From Nostoc sp. PCC 7107 (lineage in GTDB: Bacteria; Cyanobacteriota; Cyanobacteriia; Cyanobacteriales; Nostocaceae), in contig NC_019676.1 of the NCBI RefSeq assembly GCF_000316625.1, positions 5,226,501-5,290,500 of the forward strand: a DNA stretch of 64,000 nt, in the 5' to 3' direction. Positions 10,360 to 28,200 of this stretch are shown here, in pieces (within the stretch, counting starts at the first letter, position 1; the number at the start of each line of letters is the position of its first letter). Both the position numbers and the translations under genes were made by a program. A model generated the notes under the pieces. That model made no database searches, was not told the origin of the DNA, and was given only the letters and a program-made list of their open reading frames with translations.

Positions 10360-10743
10360 ACTTACCTCAATTTGTTAATTTTTGAGTGCTGTCAAAGAAA
10401 CACCTTTACGCACAAAAAATGTGCATAAATAAGCGCAAGCTCTTTAACTGATGATTTTATATCTTACACGAATAGTTTCTCTCGAATTTAGAATAATTTC
10501 GTTTTTTATATGTCTATATATTTATATGAGTGCAAAATAATGATTGGGGGAATAAATCTAGCAAGGTATAAAAATCTCTCTAGTTCTAGCCTTGAATCAT
10601 GATTCTTAAATGAAGTATAGAGAAAGACTAGAAAATAAAGTAATTACTGGTACTTTACTTAAACCTGATTTTGCTTAAAATGAGATTTTTTAGCTTTTAT
10701 CCCCCAGAATTACTGGCTAATAAAGTTTTTACAGTTGCTGAAT
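10360..10743. other. Gene-free stretch of 384 bases
   Basis: AT-rich spacer between the Crp/Fnr regulator gene and the secreted-protein gene downstream of it. It should hold the promoter of the latter, but I cannot place -35/-10 boxes with confidence. Confidence 0.4.
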
Positions 10744-20585: not shown

Positions 20586-22403
20586 CTAACGATATTGCTT
20601 GGCTTGGGTTTCATATAAATAGGCATAACGACTACCCAACTGGATTAGTTCATTATGAGTCCCACTTTCAACAATTGTGCCGTTTTCCATAACATAAATG
20701 CGATCGGCCATCTTAACTGTAGATAAGCGATGGCTAATTAAGATTGCTGCTTGATTTTGGATCAATTGGCGGAATTTTTCAAACACTTCATATTCCGCTT
20801 TCGGATCCATTGCACTAGTCGGTTCATCTAAAACTATCAACTGAGAATCTCTTAAAAATGCCCGCGCCAAGGCTATTTTTTGCCACTGACCAATACTTAA
20901 TTCTTCTCCTTGATCAAATAATTTACCCAAAATGGTGTCATACCCTTTGGGTAATTTAGTAATCATATCATCCGCACCAGAACGACGCGCCGCCGTCATA
21001 ATACTTTCTCGATTAGCAGGCAATTCAATATTAGCTAACCAAATATTTTCTTGGGCAGTAAAGTTGTATTTAGCGTAGTCTTGAAAAATCACGCTGATGT
21101 CACGGCGTAATTCGGCAATTTTATAGTCTCTGATATCAACACCATCAATAGTGATGCTACCAGCTGTTGGATCATACAAGCGACATAGCAATTTAATTAA
21201 AGTCGTTTTCCCCGAACCATTTTCACCAACTAATGCTACTACTTCTCCCGGTTTAATGTTTAAGTTAATATTATGTAGTGCTTGACGGGTTGTAGTGGAA
21301 TATTGAAAACTCACATCATGAAACACAATCCCTGTCTGTATTGGTCGCGGTATTGGTTTGGGATTTACCGAATCAACTAATCTGGGTTTAAGGTCAAGAA
21401 ACTCGTAGAGATTACCTAAAAATAAATTATCTTCGTAAAGCGCCGAAATGTTGGCTAATAAACTTTTAATATCATTCTGTCCTCGTTGTAGTGCTTGATA
21501 ATAAAGCACCAAATCACCCAAACGGAGAACTCCGTTGATAGCTTGATAGATAATTAAAGCATAAATAGCAAATATAAGAATTCCAGCGATCGCTTCGGCT
21601 GCAAAGTTAGCAATAAAGCGGCGGGTAAAAATTTTCAGACTTTCTTTATAGATTTGTCTGCGGATGCGGAGATACCAATTACTAAAGTAGTGACCTAAAT
21701 CAAATAAGCGAATTTCTTTCGCAAATTGGTCTGATGTCAGCATCCAAGCCAAATAAAAACCTTGACGTTGCATCGGTGTCCATTTGCGCTGCCAATCATA
21801 CATAATGCGGCTATATTTGACACGCACTAACATTGCAGGTAACGCAGCCACAAATAAAACACCCAAAATTCCCCAATGGAGTGTTAGTAACAACCCAATC
21901 ATTGCTACTAGGGAAATACTATTTTGCCCAATCTGTGCTAGACGATTGAGAATTTGCGGTGGTCGATAAGGTGCTTCTTGTTGCGCTCTTTGTAAGGTAT
22001 CGTAGTATAAAGAATTTTCGTAGTACTCTAGGTCAGCTTCAATAGATTTAGCGTTAATAATTCCCTGCATATAGTCCGTTACCCGTTGAGAATGGGCAGT
22101 GGTGACTAGTTCTGTTAAGGAGTTAGCCAGAGTAGTTAATAAAGTCACTCCACCAGCTATAACGATTAAAATTAAGACGTTACGAAATGCTAATGCCTTG
22201 TCTGCTAGGCTCACGTTAGCAGCTACGGCATCAATAATGAGTTTCGAGAGATAAATTGAGACTACTGGTAAAATACCTTGAATAGTCAGTAAGACTACAC
22301 GAGCGATCGTCCAACCAGGGCTACTTTGCCATACTAAACGCAATGCCGGCAAAAGTCGTAGAGTATTTTGCAGCTTATCTCGAATTTTTTTGCCTAGTTG
22401 CAT
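20586..22403 (-). CDS. ABC exporter, permease fused to ATPase, of the lasso-peptide cluster (lasso D)
   Basis: 605 residues, a half-transporter expected to act as a homodimer. The N-terminal ~320 residues form about six membrane helices. The nucleotide-binding domain has Walker A ALVGENGSGKTTLIKLL, signature LSIGQWQKIALARAF (LSIGQ in place of LSGGQ), Walker B LIVLDEPTSAMDPKAE and the switch His in AILISHRLST. There is no N-terminal C39 peptidase domain, consistent with leader removal by the separate B1/B2 proteins. It is the last gene of the lasso operon, 58 bases after the kinase gene. Its job is presumably export of, and immunity to, the mature peptides. Confidence 0.85.
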   Translation of the reverse strand: MQLGKKIRDKLQNTLRLLPALRLVWQSSPGWTIARVVLLTIQGILPVVSIYLSKLIIDAVAANVSLADKALAFRNVLILIVIAGGVTLLTTLANSLTELVTTAHSQRVTDYMQGIINAKSIEADLEYYENSLYYDTLQRAQQEAPYRPPQILNRLAQIGQNSISLVAMIGLLLTLHWGILGVLFVAALPAMLVRVKYSRIMYDWQRKWTPMQRQGFYLAWMLTSDQFAKEIRLFDLGHYFSNWYLRIRRQIYKESLKIFTRRFIANFAAEAIAGILIFAIYALIIYQAINGVLRLGDLVLYYQALQRGQNDIKSLLANISALYEDNLFLGNLYEFLDLKPRLVDSVNPKPIPRPIQTGIVFHDVSFQYSTTTRQALHNINLNIKPGEVVALVGENGSGKTTLIKLLCRLYDPTAGSITIDGVDIRDYKIAELRRDISVIFQDYAKYNFTAQENIWLANIELPANRESIMTAARRSGADDMITKLPKGYDTILGKLFDQGEELSIGQWQKIALARAFLRDSQLIVLDEPTSAMDPKAEYEVFEKFRQLIQNQAAILISHRLSTVKMADRIYVMENGTIVESGTHNELIQLGSRYAYLYETQAKQYR

Positions 22404-22461
22404 ATTTAAAATGGCGATCGCAGTAAAGAATGTGCAAATGTCAACTCTAATTTCTTAGACT

Positions 22462-23349
22462 TTAAATTGTAACGGCAGATAAGTTTTCCTGAACAAGTTC
22501 ATTTTCTACTAACTTCACCAACTCAGGTAGTGCCGCTAACGAATGTTGCCGTCGTAAACTATAAATCGGCACTTGTTGAACTACACTCATACATTGCCTA
22601 AAATGTTCTTTGAGAAATTCTGGTGCAGTCAAGGCTTGCATTTCTCTAGAATGTCGGACTAATTCTCCAAAGCTTTGTTTTGCTTCTAAAGGAACTATTT
22701 CTGAGTGAGTTCCCCAAGCTAAAACATAAATTTTTTGCAGAGGTACAGATTGTTGAAAGAAGCCGTCTTGCAATCGATGAACGCGCTTCACCGTTTGGGA
22801 ATTTAGTAAAGGTAAGCTTTCTGGTACATGGCCAAAAGAAGCCACCGCATCTGGCCATAGCTTAATTTGCGGAAACCCAGGAATTACTAGCGGTTGTTTT
22901 TCACCAACTTGAATTGCCAAAACATCATCTGTCAAAATACTGTAGCCATGAGCGTGAAAACATTCGGCTAACGTTGACTTGCCAAAACCTGAGTCGGCCA
23001 TAAAGGCTACAGCACGATCATTGATGACTACACTACTAGCATGAAGTACAAGCAAGCCCCTCTGTCTGAGCAATACGCAAATAATTACACCTAGCAGAAA
23101 AGTCCGAATTAATGCTTCATCAACACCAGGGTTGGGATCAATAACAATTTCTTTACCGTCTTTCACCAACACCATACCGAATTCGGCAATTGTAGCTAAG
23201 AGGTGGTTGCCACCATCACTACGCTTTTGTTGTGGTTCATTTAGCTTACCCAAGCGGATAACTACATCTGCTGGTTTATCACTGGGGATGAGTTCAGGTA
23301 AGGGAAATTCAGAGTGAATACCTAAGTTATATGCAGTGTAAACGTACAT
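22462..23349 (-). CDS. HPr kinase/phosphorylase-like protein of the lasso-peptide cluster
   Basis: 295 residues. The P-loop FMADSGFGKST lies at about 117-126, preceded by LHASSVVINDRAV and followed by LTDDVLAI, the core of the HPr serine kinase C-terminal domain. The usual HprK N-terminal domain is replaced by ~95 unrelated residues. Such kinases occur in some lasso clusters; the paeninodin kinase phosphorylates the C-terminal Ser of its precursor. Here none of the three precursors ends in Ser (they end Arg, Arg, Asn), so another residue or another role is likely. Its position between the precursor genes and the exporter ties it to the pathway. Confidence 0.8.
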   Translation of the reverse strand: MYVYTAYNLGIHSEFPLPELIPSDKPADVVIRLGKLNEPQQKRSDGGNHLLATIAEFGMVLVKDGKEIVIDPNPGVDEALIRTFLLGVIICVLLRQRGLLVLHASSVVINDRAVAFMADSGFGKSTLAECFHAHGYSILTDDVLAIQVGEKQPLVIPGFPQIKLWPDAVASFGHVPESLPLLNSQTVKRVHRLQDGFFQQSVPLQKIYVLAWGTHSEIVPLEAKQSFGELVRHSREMQALTAPEFLKEHFRQCMSVVQQVPIYSLRRQHSLAALPELVKLVENELVQENLSAVTI

Positions 23350-23508
23350 CTAAAATATTGCTGAATGACTACTGAATAACTATTTTTGTTGATGCAAAAC
23401 TCAATTTTACTAATGCTGTTATGTTGACAAAGTTTTGGCAATCTGTAATAAAGGAAGCCATCAGGAATACTATTTCCTGATGTTTCCAATCATCTGATTT
23501 AAGTTTTC

Positions 23509-23545
23509 CAGTAGTCCTAAAAAGCTCTATTTTCTAGGACTACTG
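23509..23545. repeat. Perfect 11-bp inverted repeat between lasso precursor and kinase genes
   Basis: CAGTAGTCCTA (23509-23519) and TAGGACTACTG (23535-23545) are exact inverse copies with a 15-base loop. Position after the last precursor gene suggests a partial terminator or RNA-stabilising hairpin that would set precursor mRNA above kinase and exporter mRNA; this is inference. A weaker hairpin lies just below at about 23460-23481. Confidence 0.45.
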
Positions 23546-23628
23546 AAGCTTATCTTAGCTCTGGAGTATATTTGGGTGTAATGGTAAAAGTAGTTGTTAC
23601 TATTACACTCATAACTTGTTTAGAACTA

Positions 23629-23823
23629 TTATCGGGGTACGCGGGGTACGGGATTAAGTACCCCATTAACGGAACCTTCTAGCCCTAGTACTTCGCCAGG
23701 AAACTGAGTAGGATTGTCACCGATTTGGAAAGTATCCGTTTCTCCTGGTCTACCAAACGCATGTGTAACGTTTTGAACACTACCGTAGTTTGTTAATTTG
23801 GGAGCTTCGTAAGCTTTTTTCAT
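23629..23823 (-). CDS. Lasso peptide precursor 1
   Basis: 64 residues from the ATG at 23823, chosen for the AGGAG eight bases upstream and because the sibling genes begin identically (MKKAYEAP). The leader has the lasso pattern YxxPxLxxxGxxxxxT (Tyr5, Pro8, Leu10, Gly14, Thr20). With Thr at position -2 the core starts at Ala22: AFGRPGETDTFQIG, placing Asp at core position 9 and Glu at 7. The remaining core (NPTQFPGEVLGLEG ... ending VPR) brings the core to 43 residues, about twice the usual size. Recognition by B1, cleavage by B2 and Ala1-Asp9 ring closure by C are inferred from family. Confidence 0.85.
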   Translation of the reverse strand: MKKAYEAPKLTNYGSVQNVTHAFGRPGETDTFQIGDNPTQFPGEVLGLEGSVNGVLNPVPRVPR

Positions 23824-23895
23824 TGTTTGAGTCTCCTGTGGGTTTTGTTTATTTTTTACTAAACTAGATATTGGCTTTGAGACATTCACCAATTC

Positions 23896-23978
23896 AGTCT
23901 AGGTAGGAGCAGGCTGAAGCTGCACTGCCCCTAGTCCGACTTATGGTTTTAATGGGGATATAATTCAGCCCAAGAGCA
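23896..23978. repeat. Lasso intergenic repeat, copy 3 (most diverged)
   Basis: About 83 bases upstream of precursor 1 (in transcription direction). Starts AGTCTAGGTAGGAGCAGGCT on the plus strand and includes CTAGTCCGACTTATGG. It matches the copies at 24347 and 24725; its far half has drifted. On the minus strand CTAG..GGGCAG can pair with CTGCTC..CTAG as a hairpin. Confidence 0.8.
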
Positions 23979-23990
23979 AGTGTTAAGTAT

Positions 23991-24191
23991 TCATCTTCCT
24001 CGATTGCTACCTACGGGAATGATTATTCCATTAGCAGCAGAACCACTCAGCCCTAGAATTTCGCCAGGAAACTGAGTAGGATTATTCCCGACTTGGAAAG
24101 TATCCGCCGAACCATCATCACCAAAAGCATTAGTAACATCTTGAACACGACCGTAGTTTGTTATTTGAGGAGCTTCATAAGCTTTTTTCAT
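23991..24191 (-). CDS. Lasso peptide precursor 2
   Basis: 66 residues. The leader MKKAYEAPQITNYGRVQDVT fits the lasso pattern with Ile replacing Leu at position 10. The predicted core starts at Ala22: AFGDDGSADTFQVG, with Asp at position 9 and no acidic residue at 7 or 8. The tail (NPTQFPGEILGLSGSAANG ... NRGR) makes the core 45 residues. The upstream region differs from those of precursors 1 and 3 and the ribosome-binding site (AGAG) is weaker, so expression may be lower. The ending is basic, unlike precursor 3. Confidence 0.85.
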   Translation of the reverse strand: MKKAYEAPQITNYGRVQDVTNAFGDDGSADTFQVGNNPTQFPGEILGLSGSAANGIIIPVGSNRGR

Positions 24192-24346
24192 ATTTTCTGT
24201 CTCTTGCTTGCTTTGTTTATCTTTTGCGGGAATATCTAGCCGTAGTCATTTAGGTTAGGTCAATATTGATTACTCAAAGCCTGATAGCTAATGGATTATA
24301 CTCAGCACTTTGCTATAAATATTGGCTTGGGAACTATCCCCAATCT

Positions 24347-24426
24347 AGTCTAGGTAGGAGCAGGCTAAAAATGCACTGCCCCTAGTCAGACTTATGGTTT
24401 TTTTGGTGATGATTTAGCCAAAGAGC
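24347..24426. repeat. Lasso intergenic repeat, copy 2, carrying a cyclase gene remnant
   Basis: About 80 bases. Read on the minus strand it encodes LWLNHHQKNHKSD-stop, matching the last codons of the cyclase gene (LWLNHNQKNHKSD-stop), followed by the same hairpin-forming sequence as the other copies. It is a duplicated piece of the cyclase 3' end. Confidence 0.85.
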
Positions 24427-24472
24427 GTATGGAACAAATTACCAAAATGGTATTGTTTCACCGTTATTTGTC

Positions 24473-24652
24473 CTAGTTGGGAATGAGTACCCCATTTTGG
24501 GAACCACTGAGTCCAATAGTTGAACCAGGAACAGGAGTAGGATTACTTCCAATTAGGAAGGTATCTCTTCCACCTGCGCTACCAAAAGCATTGGTAATGT
24601 TTTGAACACTACCGTAGTTTGTGAGTTGAGGAGCTTCGTAAGCTTTTTTCAT
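24473..24652 (-). CDS. Lasso peptide precursor 3
   Basis: 59 residues from the ATG at 24652 (AGGAG seven bases upstream). The leader MKKAYEAPQLTNYGSVQNIT fits YxxPxLxxxGxxxxxT. The core starts at Ala22: AFGSAGGRDTFLIG, where Asp at position 9 is the only acidic residue in the ring region, which fixes the predicted ring size at nine. The tail (SNPTPVPGSTIGLSGSQNG ... IPN) gives a 38-residue core. Its 70-base 5' leader is nearly identical to that of precursor 1, indicating recent duplication. It is the first precursor after the cyclase gene. Confidence 0.85.
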   Translation of the reverse strand: MKKAYEAPQLTNYGSVQNITNAFGSAGGRDTFLIGSNPTPVPGSTIGLSGSQNGVLIPN

Positions 24653-24724
24653 TGTTAAGTCTCCTGTTGTTTTTGTTGATCTTTGTACTGGACTAGATAT
24701 TGGCTTTAAGATATTCACCAATTC

Positions 24725-24804
24725 AGTCTAGGTAGGAGCAGGCTAAAAACGCACTACCCCTAGTCCGACTTATGGTTTTTTTGGTTATGATTTAGCCAAA
24801 GAGA
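24725..24804. repeat. Lasso intergenic repeat, copy 1, overlapping the end of the cyclase gene
   Basis: The parental copy: it includes the last codons of the cyclase gene (stop at 24760) and about 35 bases beyond it. Copies 2 and 3 reproduce this junction ahead of the other precursor genes. Confidence 0.85.
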
Positions 24805-26793
24805 GAGTGTTAAAGCTTTCCAAACTGGAATTGTCGAATCATCATTTGCATCCTCTGTTGTAGATATAAGATTGTCGTAGTATCTGCGGAGTGTGTTTAG
24901 ATCCACAAATTCTTGAAGATTACTGCCATCGTTAGTAATTACTTGATCTACGAGCAGTCGATCAAAATGCAATAACCCACGCTGAAAGTTGGGACTCATA
25001 TCTGTTTTGCCGCCACGCCACTGCACTTCTTGGGGAAGAATACCATCTAAACCTTTCCGCATGATGAAGCGAGACCATCCTTGATTGAGTTTTTGTTCTG
25101 GTGGTAGAGAGAGGCAAAATTCAATCAAACGTTTATCCATAAAGGGATGACGTGACTCTAGAGAAAATGCCGCAGAACATAGGTCGCCTAATTCCAATAC
25201 TGTGGTGAACAAGGTGGAGTTTAAGGTACGACACTGTTCTTCTCTCACTGTTACGGCGCGACTTTGGTCTTGATCCTGAGATTGTGTTAGAGGATTTATC
25301 CCGACTGTTTTGGCGAATTGCGGGTTGATTAAAGAAGTAACTTGGGGTTGATTTTGTTTGTGACCACGGAGTGATCGCCAAATCTTCAAGATATATTGAG
25401 GAACTAAGGGTTTAATTCCGTAAGTGACGAACAATTTCCGCCGCGAAACTTGAAAATGCTGACTAATTTGCAGCGCAGTTTGCACAAAAGTTAGCATTTT
25501 TCTCTGCTTGACTAACTCCTGTAAATAGGTAATGGCATATTCGTAGAAAATTGCGGCAACTGAGGTATTAAAGTGTTGAGATATGGCCTGAGCTTCTTGG
25601 ATAAACGTCTGCCATTTTCCTTGACGTGCTAACTCGGCGAAATAAGTCACGCCGTGCGATACTGTTGTATCACCATCAAAACCATCTAAGGAAATGCGAA
25701 TACCTGCTTGTTGAGCAGCCCGATTTAATCCCCATACCAGAAAATGACTAGGCCCAATAAAGGGTTCTTCCATATATTTATAGTAGTCCTGCCATTCCGA
25801 TAAGGGGCCTGATTGATCGGCGTGGACATAATGGGGGATAAATCCACCCTGATTTAATACAGGGTTAATGTATTGGCGTTCATCACATTCAGGAACATCT
25901 GCAAAAATATTTGAGAAAGTGTGCAGTTGTGCGTTTTTTTCTTGTAATAAGATATCTCTGGCTACACAAGCAATGGAAGAGGAATCTAAGCCACCACTCA
26001 AGTGACAGCTAACAGGAAATGCACTGCGTAAACGACAACGCACTGCCTCGGTAAACACCTCTCGGAAAGCTGCTGCATATTCTGCATCTGAGTTTAGTCT
26101 TAACTCTTCACCCACTTCTAAAGACCAGTAGGCGTGAGATATTAATCCACTCGTGTAACTCACTGTCATTGTGTGAGCCGGAGGCAATCTATAGATATTT
26201 TTATAGGCAGTGATAGATTTATCTTCTGTAAATGGGTGTAAATGATTGGCGATCGCAATTTCATTTACCACTTTCGGCACTCCTGGTAAACACAAAAGCG
26301 CCTTCATCTCCGAAGCAAAGTAAAGCTTTTCTCCAGGTTGATAGTAATAATACAAGGGTTTGATGCCAAAATGATCTCTGGCACAGAACAATGTCTGCTT
26401 CCGCTGATCCCAAATTACAAATGCAAAGTCACCCAATAATTTTTTTGGGCATTGTTCACCCCATTTTTCGTAAGCCGCCAGTACTAACTGGCTATCTGTG
26501 ATTTTTTCTTGTGGGCAATTATCAATGGATAATGCAGATATTAGTTCTTCTCGGTTATCTATGCGGATATCTGCTGTAATAACTAACTCACCAGTACTAT
26601 CAACTAAAGGTAATTTCTCTAGCAGCGATTCTGGCGTACTCCACAGCATCCGATGACCCAAGCCAACTGCGCCAGAACACCAGATATCTGCACCATCAGA
26701 CCCACGATGAGCGATCGCATCTACCATTAAGGCCAGCTTTTTCTTCTCTACTGGCTGACTATCTAGATTGTAAATGCCAACTATACCACTCAT
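24760..26793 (-). CDS. Lasso macrolactam synthetase, asparagine synthetase B-like (lasso C)
   Basis: 677 residues. The N-terminal part is a class II glutamine amidotransferase domain (GIVGIYNLDSQ, AHRGSDG, FAFVIWDQR) but starts Met-Ser instead of Met-Cys, so the nucleophile for glutamine hydrolysis is missing. The C-terminal domain has the ATP-pyrophosphatase loop CHLSGGLDSSSIACVAR at about 260-276 and LDGFDGDTTVSHG. In lasso clusters this enzyme adenylates the side-chain carboxylate of Asp/Glu in the core and closes the ring onto the N-terminal amine. The gene starts three bases after B2 and precedes the three precursor genes. Confidence 0.9.
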   Translation of the reverse strand: MSGIVGIYNLDSQPVEKKKLALMVDAIAHRGSDGADIWCSGAVGLGHRMLWSTPESLLEKLPLVDSTGELVITADIRIDNREELISALSIDNCPQEKITDSQLVLAAYEKWGEQCPKKLLGDFAFVIWDQRKQTLFCARDHFGIKPLYYYYQPGEKLYFASEMKALLCLPGVPKVVNEIAIANHLHPFTEDKSITAYKNIYRLPPAHTMTVSYTSGLISHAYWSLEVGEELRLNSDAEYAAAFREVFTEAVRCRLRSAFPVSCHLSGGLDSSSIACVARDILLQEKNAQLHTFSNIFADVPECDERQYINPVLNQGGFIPHYVHADQSGPLSEWQDYYKYMEEPFIGPSHFLVWGLNRAAQQAGIRISLDGFDGDTTVSHGVTYFAELARQGKWQTFIQEAQAISQHFNTSVAAIFYEYAITYLQELVKQRKMLTFVQTALQISQHFQVSRRKLFVTYGIKPLVPQYILKIWRSLRGHKQNQPQVTSLINPQFAKTVGINPLTQSQDQDQSRAVTVREEQCRTLNSTLFTTVLELGDLCSAAFSLESRHPFMDKRLIEFCLSLPPEQKLNQGWSRFIMRKGLDGILPQEVQWRGGKTDMSPNFQRGLLHFDRLLVDQVITNDGSNLQEFVDLNTLRRYYDNLISTTEDANDDSTIPVWKALTLSLWLNHNQKNHKSD

Positions 26794-26796
26794 GAT

Positions 26797-27228
26797 TTAT
26801 ATCCCTGCAAAAGACGGCAATGGAGTAAAGCGTGAGAGATCAGGAAGATAGCCGATGACTACTTGTCCTTGAGTTTCAATCCAAGCATGAGCTTCTAAGT
26901 TTCCAGCTTCACCTTTAACCACTCCGATACGTAATTCGGGTGAATAACCATAGCGAGTCATTAACACTTGACACGTTAAAGCCCTCGCTAGACATTTAGC
27001 TCCACCCGGTGTGTAACGCGTGCTAATATTGATTGCCCAAACAATTTTGTTCAAAGAAACTGTTTCTACTCTGGGGTTTGGCTTACTGTGTTGATTTATA
27101 AGTTTTCTTAAATAATTAAATGATAGTAACCGCATTCCCAGCCGTACTAATCCTAGTAAAACGAACGTACCTAATAAAAATTGGCGATCGCTGTTGGTTA
27201 GTTGCAGTATTTTAAGCAGATACTTCAT
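26797..27228 (-). CDS. Lasso peptide leader peptidase, transglutaminase-like B2 protein
   Basis: 143 residues. A hydrophobic N-terminal segment (FLLGTFVLLGLVRLGMRLL) is followed by the transglutaminase-like protease core: Cys in GGAKCLARALTCQ, His in EAHAWIE and Asp in YLPDLSRF, matching the Cys-His-Asp triad of lasso B2 proteins. It should cleave the precursor after the Thr-containing end of the leader once B1 has bound it. It overlaps the B1 gene by 17 bases, indicating translational coupling. Confidence 0.88.
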   Translation of the reverse strand: MKYLLKILQLTNSDRQFLLGTFVLLGLVRLGMRLLSFNYLRKLINQHSKPNPRVETVSLNKIVWAINISTRYTPGGAKCLARALTCQVLMTRYGYSPELRIGVVKGEAGNLEAHAWIETQGQVVIGYLPDLSRFTPLPSFAGI

Positions 27229-27517
27229 TCTTAATTTCGATCAATCCTTTCGCTGCTAAGTCTTCTAGCAAAGCCGAAATATCAAGTTTACATACCTCTG
27301 CTGCTACTTCATATTCTGCTAAGATGGCATCTTGAATTTCTTGGATAGTCTTGGGTGACTGAATGAAATTCCATATACTAGCCCCTACTTGATTCAGTCC
27401 ATAGTAAGCACCAGATTTAATATCAAGGATAACCACTTCTCCTTGTAATTCTGAACAAATTTGTTCTCTTGAGGCTACTACACTAAGGTTTTCAGATGAA
27501 CTTAATTTTGTCAGCAT
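27212..27517 (-). CDS. PqqD-like RiPP recognition element (lasso B1)
   Basis: 101 residues. The sequence EVVILDIKSGAYYGLNQVGA then IWNFIQSPKTIQEI and LLEDLAAKGLIEI is a standard PqqD-type winged helix, which binds the leader peptide in many RiPP pathways. In split lasso systems B1 delivers the precursor to B2. It is the first gene of the operon; the upstream 600 bases contain no other lasso gene. Confidence 0.88.
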   Translation of the reverse strand: MLTKLSSSENLSVVASREQICSELQGEVVILDIKSGAYYGLNQVGASIWNFIQSPKTIQEIQDAILAEYEVAAEVCKLDISALLEDLAAKGLIEIKNEVSA

Positions 27518-28126: not shown

Positions 28127-28200
28127 TCGGGATGACTGGATTCGAACCAGCGGCCCCTTCGTCCCGAACGAAGTGCGCTACCAAGCTGCGCTACATCCCG
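28127..28200 (-). tRNA. tRNA-Pro (anticodon CGG)
   Basis: 74 bases on the minus strand, 5' end at 28200. The acceptor stem pairs CGGGATG with CATCCCG and leaves discriminator A at 28127. The D-arm contains AGCGCAGCTTGGTAGCGC. The anticodon stem CTTCG/CGAAG encloses loop TTCGGGA, giving anticodon CGG. The T-arm is CTGGTTCGAATCCAG. CCA is not encoded, as is common in cyanobacteria. Confidence 0.95.

Follow-up and report, generated by a model that had tools for sequence, protein, structure and literature searches.

In this article, we will focus on a lasso-peptide gene cluster of the cyanobacterium Nostoc sp. PCC 7107, found at positions 20586-27517 of a 64,000-nucleotide stretch of its genome (hereafter the window). 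We will particularly consider the length of its predicted peptides, the residue that its kinase may modify and an RNA hairpin that precedes each precursor gene. The cluster consists of eight minus-strand genes (Table 1), in the order B1, B2, C, three precursors, kinase (K) and ATP-binding cassette (ABC) exporter (D). B1 and B2 overlap by 17 bases, and B2 is separated from C by 3 bases (26794-26796). An initial annotation of the same sequence had described these genes, their order and both junctions, and all of them are present; it mentioned neither the hairpins, nor the missing C-terminal Ser for the kinase, nor the core length. We number the precursors from the cyclase (A1, A2, A3), which is the reverse of that annotation.

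The enzymes and precursors

B1 matches the PqqD family (PF05402, E 1.3e-20) and scores 78.8 bits with the lasso-specific model NF033536, 1.2 bits short of the cut-off of 80. B2 matches Transglut_core3 (PF13471, E 3e-23) and NF033537 (112.8 bits, cut-off 33), and its Cys79 and His114 are conserved in all 28 aligned B2 proteins, while C reaches 1060.6 bits with NF033535, for which the cut-off is 525. The three precursors are all over the NF033528 cut-off of 33 bits, and each shows the canonical leader spacing (Y-17, P-14, L-12, G-8, T-2) together with Asp as core residue 9. A split-B lasso cluster is recognised by B1, B2, C and a precursor with a YxxPxL leader, Thr(-2) and an Asp or Glu at core position 7-9, and every one of these parts is found here. 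By all the sequence tests used, the cluster is a lasso-peptide cluster. The initial annotation had reached this from the PqqD-like B1, the transglutaminase-like B2 and the asparagine-synthetase-like C, and the curated models agree with it, for B1 by Pfam only. The cluster itself is of a known kind: both its cyanobacterial cyclase and its precursors are covered by NCBIfam models.

In the genome, a single contig of 6.33 Mb, there is no precursor match at E <= 0.001 beyond these three, nor a second cyclase over the cut-off. Two of the precursor open reading frames extend upstream with TTG starts (24721 and 23892); the ATG starts at 24652 and 23823 were adopted because a good ribosome-binding site precedes them and because of the alignment with relatives. 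Orthologues of A1, A2 and A3 occur in 5, 6 and 6 species, respectively, and the pooled ratios of nonsynonymous to synonymous polymorphism, taken without a significance test, are 0.39, 0.57 and 0.66 for the cores and 0.31, 0.39 and 0.19 for the leaders, so that all three precursors look maintained.

Table 1. Features of the cluster and its surroundings, in window positions (aa, amino acids)
Feature	Position	Strand	Description	Evidence
tRNA gene	28127-28200	-	a short way upstream of B1	Rfam RF00005, 64.7 bits
B1	27212-27517	-	leader-binding (RRE) protein, PqqD-like, 101 aa	PF05402; NF033536 just below cut-off
B2	26797-27228	-	leader peptidase, transglutaminase-like, 143 aa	NF033537, PF13471
C	24760-26793	-	lasso cyclase, asparagine-synthetase-like, 677 aa	NF033535
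Type I RNA hairpin, copy 1	24718-24777	-	overlaps the end of C; C stop codon inside the 5' arm	R1, 83.8 bits
A1 precursor	24473-24652	-	59 aa, predicted core 38 aa	NF033528, 47.5 bits
Type I RNA hairpin, copy 2	24340-24399	-		R1, 83.6 bits
A2 precursor	23991-24191	-	66 aa, predicted core 45 aa	NF033528, 35.8 bits
Type I RNA hairpin, copy 3	23889-23948	-		R1, 84.7 bits
A3 precursor	23629-23823	-	64 aa, predicted core 43 aa	NF033528, 43.0 bits
K	22462-23349	-	HprK-like peptide kinase, 295 aa	structure model, PDB matches, H103/K124/D141/D142
D	20586-22403	-	ABC exporter, 605 aa; its Pfam matches include no peptidase domain	PF00005, E 3.7e-35; MsbA-like in NCBIfam

Long predicted cores with a conserved candidate ring acid

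Precursors of relatives were collected from 84 sources, namely 23 loci, 60 fetched stretches and the window (L-numbers denote such loci and stretches from relatives' genomes). These were chosen for a cyclase or precursor match, and some are the same genome twice. The leader pattern gave 134 rows, which were reduced, after dropping the window rows outside 23000-25000, to 111 unique precursors from 67 sources, A1 being identical to one L038 precursor and counted once. The leader is fixed by the search pattern and the core is not. Core position 9 is Asp in 102 of the 111 precursors, against a shuffled mean of 10.1 and a maximum of 19; among the 56 representatives below 50% core identity, it is Asp in 48. 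One L049 precursor (at 10395) has its Asp at position 10 and no hairpin, its two siblings having both Asp9 and hairpin.

The window cores start with Ala, and residue 1 is Gly in only 5 of the 111 precursors. A bulky core residue 1 was considered as a new trait and dropped, since Leu1 and Trp1 reportedly occur in a lasso paper and the window cores do not show it. Core length ranges from 24 to 58 (median 43) and is above 33 in 99 of the 111. According to a 2026 review (PMC13352647), the record holders are achromonodin-1, a 30-residue peptide with the largest loop, and the 33-residue pandonodin, with the longest tail; a 36-residue cyanobacterial core has already been predicted (PMC9332814). The cores of A1-A3, if uncut, would exceed both record holders. 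Their calculated monoisotopic masses, after loss of one water, are 3636.854 (A1), 4455.184 (A2) and 4515.293 Da (A3), to which a phosphate would add 79.966. In relatives outside the window's subfamily, two Cys are common in the tail (they follow a G-S-x-D motif in L193, L194, L208, L210 and L219) and could form a disulfide as in pandonodin, a class IV lasso peptide.

The kinase and its candidate serine

K has no Pfam match, and it matches the HprK-related NCBIfam models weakly (35.4 bits, cut-off 200). Its AlphaFold2 model, built on a 36-sequence alignment, has a mean predicted local distance difference test score of 90.1. The best PDB match of this model is phosphoenolpyruvate (PEP) carboxykinase 1oen (E 7.9e-8); HPr kinase 3tqf_B is matched with E 9.9e-7 and a template modelling score of 0.67 by target and 0.36 by query, and the best 50 PDB rows are all PEP carboxykinase or HPr kinase. 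His103, Lys124 and Asp142 are invariant in the 36 aligned kinases, and Asp141 is present in 34 of them. By its model, K has the HprK/PEP carboxykinase fold; it also carries the H-K-D-D residues and is predicted to act as a kinase on the precursor.

Which residue it might modify is suggested by the precursors. Known lasso kinases target a C-terminal Ser (PMC9266682, PMC8498205) or, in the case of BsfK, Ser3. A1, A2 and A3 end in Asn, Arg and Arg, so that they lack the C-terminal Ser of the paeninodin type, which is found in only 14 of the 111 precursors. Our candidate is the Ser of an internal G-S motif, which is core residue 30 in all three window precursors. The tail motif [GDN]-S-x-[DN] is found in 82 of the 111 (shuffled mean 16.3, maximum 28). 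A C-terminal Ser is carried by 10 of the 29 precursors without this motif and by 4 of the 82 with it (Fisher p 0.0002), or by 4/12 and 3/44 among the 56 representatives (p 0.03), both p values being inflated by relatedness.

The same division is seen on a tree of 73 kinases, with 109 of the 111 precursors assigned to them. Under strict motif labels, a supported group of 10 kinases (100/96) comprises 7 with a C-terminal-Ser substrate, none with the motif and 3 with neither, while the other 63 comprise 55 with the motif, 3 with both, 1 with C-terminal Ser and 4 with neither. The motif label needs 8 changes on this tree (shuffled mean 16.4, 0 of 500 as low), a clustering to which near-copies contribute; the root was placed at the midpoint, and the deepest fork is weakly supported. 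The kinase phylogeny splits largely by motif versus C-terminal Ser, and our working hypothesis is that Ser30 may be the target of K.

A hairpin at the cyclase-precursor junction

A hairpin of about 60 nucleotides (type I) precedes each of the three precursors (Table 1), and the genome has exactly these three copies of its pattern. The mean folding z-score of 28 copies is -3.6 (range -1.5 to -5.2). None of the 4227 covariance models of Rfam 15 matches it at gathering cut-offs, and at E up to 5 there are four microRNA chance matches, none of them on the hairpin. Our literature search, made from listings, found no published element of this kind.

We built a covariance model (R1) on 17 hand-picked copies. 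In 217 genomes of the window's family, it gives 29 matches in 16 genomes, of which 28 are strong (at least 61 bits, 15 genomes), each at most 215 bases from a precursor match; the remaining one (30 bits) is not beside a precursor match. In 386 genomes drawn from the phylum, it gives six strong matches in three genomes and a weak one elsewhere (27 bits). A scan of 80 of the 84 sources, leaving out L178, L179, L180 and L183 as repeats of L039, L040, L038 and L052, gives 30 matches that are strong and, on the reverse strand, four weak images.

Copy 1 overlaps the 3' end of the cyclase gene, and the stop codon does not end at the same place in all relatives: among 15 loci, its last base falls on element position 8 seven times, on 18 three times (including the window), on 34 twice and on 55 three times. 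The cyclase end therefore reads copy 1 in all three frames across species, with letters nearly unchanged. Copies 2 and 3 lie outside cyclase genes. Of their positions, 88 and 83%, respectively, do not vary across six species; the corresponding values in the 60 bases upstream and downstream are 70 and 37% for copy 2, and 60 and 67% for copy 3. This frame variety and this conservation above the flanks favour selection on the nucleic acid. Copies of the cyclase 3' end precede A2 and A3: precursor and hairpin are duplicated together, along with the end of C. A switch-like pairing of the 3' arm with downstream sequence, whose probability is at least 0.5 in 10 of 28 elements and at most 0.07 in 12, is not claimed.

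A second hairpin (type II) is found at the same junction in other relatives; part of it is an 11-mer common to 32 of 84 other upstream regions, and a pattern search gave 45 copies. We examined covariation in 24 copies with clean ends chosen by eye, four of them at cyclase ends, a choice that favours the outer stem and not the inner one. The pairing cells amount to 91.7% (shuffled 84.4), the cells changed on both sides to 31 (shuffled 12.2) and the covariation score to 0.380 (shuffled 0.235; slid at most 0.155), none of which was reached in 500 shuffles. Cruder measures were reached, namely the pairs with double changes in 118 of 500 and the further pair types in 95 of 500. An alignment of 92 type II matches (84 distinct) agrees on the covariation, but it is fitted to the model.

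The type II model (R2) finds 65 matches, spread over 36 of the 208 family genomes; none lies more than 475 bases from a precursor match, and 63 lie at most 300 bases away. It has no match in the 11 genomes of the window's genus, nor in 185 genomes of the order, a draw that could include none of the 36 known carriers and so has little weight. Rfam 15 has no match to type II at five loci (E up to 1). In the presumed first copies, the cyclase stop codon is at model position 57 in 18 of 20, the other two not being at a cyclase end. Types I and II share CC(A/G)TAAGTC at the ancestral stop codon and may be kin. An orphan type II hairpin at L203:3912-3977 (63.4 bits), with no precursor frame behind it, looks like a decayed duplicate, and a similar one is found in L204 (3672-3737).

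A proposed mechanism and its alternatives

The reading that we favour, with a probability of about 60%, is that of a lasso operon making Asp9-ringed peptides that are phosphorylated on an internal Ser, with a copied hairpin that sets expression. The transcript would form a hairpin before each precursor gene, which would descend from the cyclase-precursor junction and have been copied with each precursor. The hairpin probably tunes precursor expression, most likely setting it relative to the enzymes through processing, stabilisation or attenuation of the shared transcript. B1 would bind the leader and present the precursor to B2, which would cut after the residue that follows Thr(-2). K, before threading, would most likely phosphorylate the Ser of the conserved tail motif. 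C would activate Asp9 and link it to Ala1, the N-terminus that the B2 cut exposes, so that a ring of nine residues closes around the tail, and D would export the product. The cluster could in this way make up to three class II-like lasso peptides, their long tails presumably staying on the product.

This last point is where another scheme would differ: the conserved part past the Ser30 motif could be a follower, and its removal would leave a lasso of more ordinary length that ends at or near Ser30, so that the kinase Ser becomes C-terminal much as in paeninodin. Reported lasso kinases do act mostly on a C-terminal Ser (PMC9266682), and the stretch past the motif differs much in length and sequence among subfamilies. 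However, these kinases act on the uncut precursor (PMC9266682), where Ser30 is not terminal, the A1 orthologues agree at the end of the tail, and RGR is the C-terminus of all six A2 orthologues; no peptidase for a follower is seen in the cluster. We consider a follower unlikely. We regard as very improbable that the enzymes make an unthreaded, lactam-bridged branched peptide instead of a true lasso. Threading is not readable from sequence and few examples with tails this long are known (PMC13352647), but C is far above the cut-off of the lasso cyclase family and every part of a lasso cluster is present. As for the hairpin, it could be a repeat of the DNA that does not work as RNA, for instance an operator or a side effect of precursor duplication, the three copies having arisen with a tandem duplication that takes in the end of C and type I showing no significant covariation. 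Such a repeat would have to be reconciled with the reading of the cyclase end in three frames with unchanged letters, with the conservation of copies 2 and 3 above their flanks, with the covariation of type II at the same junction and with the hairpins kept at single-precursor loci (L040, L041, L045, L182 and L185), and we find it doubtful.

Several observations weigh against the operon scheme that we favour. No product is known, and Asp9 is missing in 9 of the 111 precursors. The motif region of A2 itself reads G-S-A-A-N, outside the strict motif, and its orthologue L052_10552 has Cys in place of the motif Ser (G-C-P-D). The usual P-loop pattern allows Ala at its first position, and the first Walker A residue of K is Ala118 (Ala in 7 and Gly in 29 of the 36 aligned kinases). 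The residue at the same position in BsfK, Gly163, is important for activity (PMC10368454). Type I is too conserved for significant covariation (26 of 60 columns invariant); two pairs show double changes, a count no higher than in shuffles. Finally, one of the three L049 precursors and one of the two L184 precursors have no hairpin match.

Relation to known clusters and distribution

The initial annotation could not tell whether a relative had been described. Relatives have been, both in NCBIfam, as families, and in genome papers that list such clusters (PMC9332814, PMC8073705, PMC11392904, PMC9967302), and cyanobacterial lasso clusters are also in print in PMC8600333. C and the three precursors are above the curated cut-offs of NF033535 and NF033528; these models cover proteins only, without the type of kinase substrate or the RNA hairpins. 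For cyanobacterial lasso clusters, the papers named above cite Tietz 2017. Our literature search, mostly from listings, found no characterised cyanobacterial lasso peptide.

With paeninodin-type clusters (PadeK, ThcoK, SyanK, PsmK), the cluster shares the split B, the cyclase, the exporter, the HprK-like kinase with H-K-D-D and a predicted nine-residue ring. Unlike them, its precursors have no terminal Ser, and their cores are much longer. Its gene order (B1 B2 C A K D) differs from that of Firmicutes (C A K B1 B2 D) and of a proteobacterial cluster (A B1 B2 C K D), as given in PMC5067487. The lasso kinase BsfK of Bradymonas sediminis (PMC10368454) acts, as is proposed here for K, on a residue other than a C-terminal Ser. 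There it is the ring residue Ser3 that is modified and position -2 is Ile, whereas the window has Thr(-2) and a candidate Ser in the tail. Another Nostocales lasso cluster, that of Cyanocohniella sp. LLY, has a predicted cleaved peptide of 36 residues (PMC9332814); the available part of that paper mentions neither kinase nor hairpin for it. Its precursor (L057) ends in Ser, and its kinase is in the other group of the tree. Like Rfam families, the hairpins are conserved structured RNAs with a fixed gene context; unlike them, neither type has a match in Rfam 15. Taken together, an undescribed cis-acting RNA family anchored at the cyclase end and copied with the precursors, the longest lasso peptides known, and an internal tail Ser phosphorylated by kinases of a lineage separate from that of the C-terminal-Ser kinases form a tentative combination, which we consider possible rather than probable.

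The closest named relative is Nostoc sp. LEGE 06077, with a cyclase 92% identical. Among the 23 cyanobacterial loci (L038-L059 and L065), B1, B2, C, K and the ABC exporter are all found in this order in 16, while one or more of the five genes were not found in the other 7 (L045, L050 and L055-L059), partly from contig ends. A kinase gene lies within 6.5 kb of every one of the 111 precursors, on the same strand. A cyclase over the cut-off is found in 16 of the 386 phylum genomes, and a precursor over its cut-off in 9 of the same 386. An extra gene with a weak B1 match (27 bits), possibly for another tailoring protein, lies between kinase and exporter at L044:12512-13768; similar weak B1 matches are seen near the exporter in L043 and L045.

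Implications

Lasso peptides are described as underexplored in cyanobacteria in a 2023 paper (PMC9967302), yet 63 of the 217 genomes of the window's family carry a precursor over the cut-off. The length of their cores puts to the test what tail length a lasso cyclase can still thread, and the kinase split allows a direct test of internal versus C-terminal phosphorylation. The hairpin is a specific marker for these loci, and it raises the question of how one transcript sets the ratio of enzyme to substrate.

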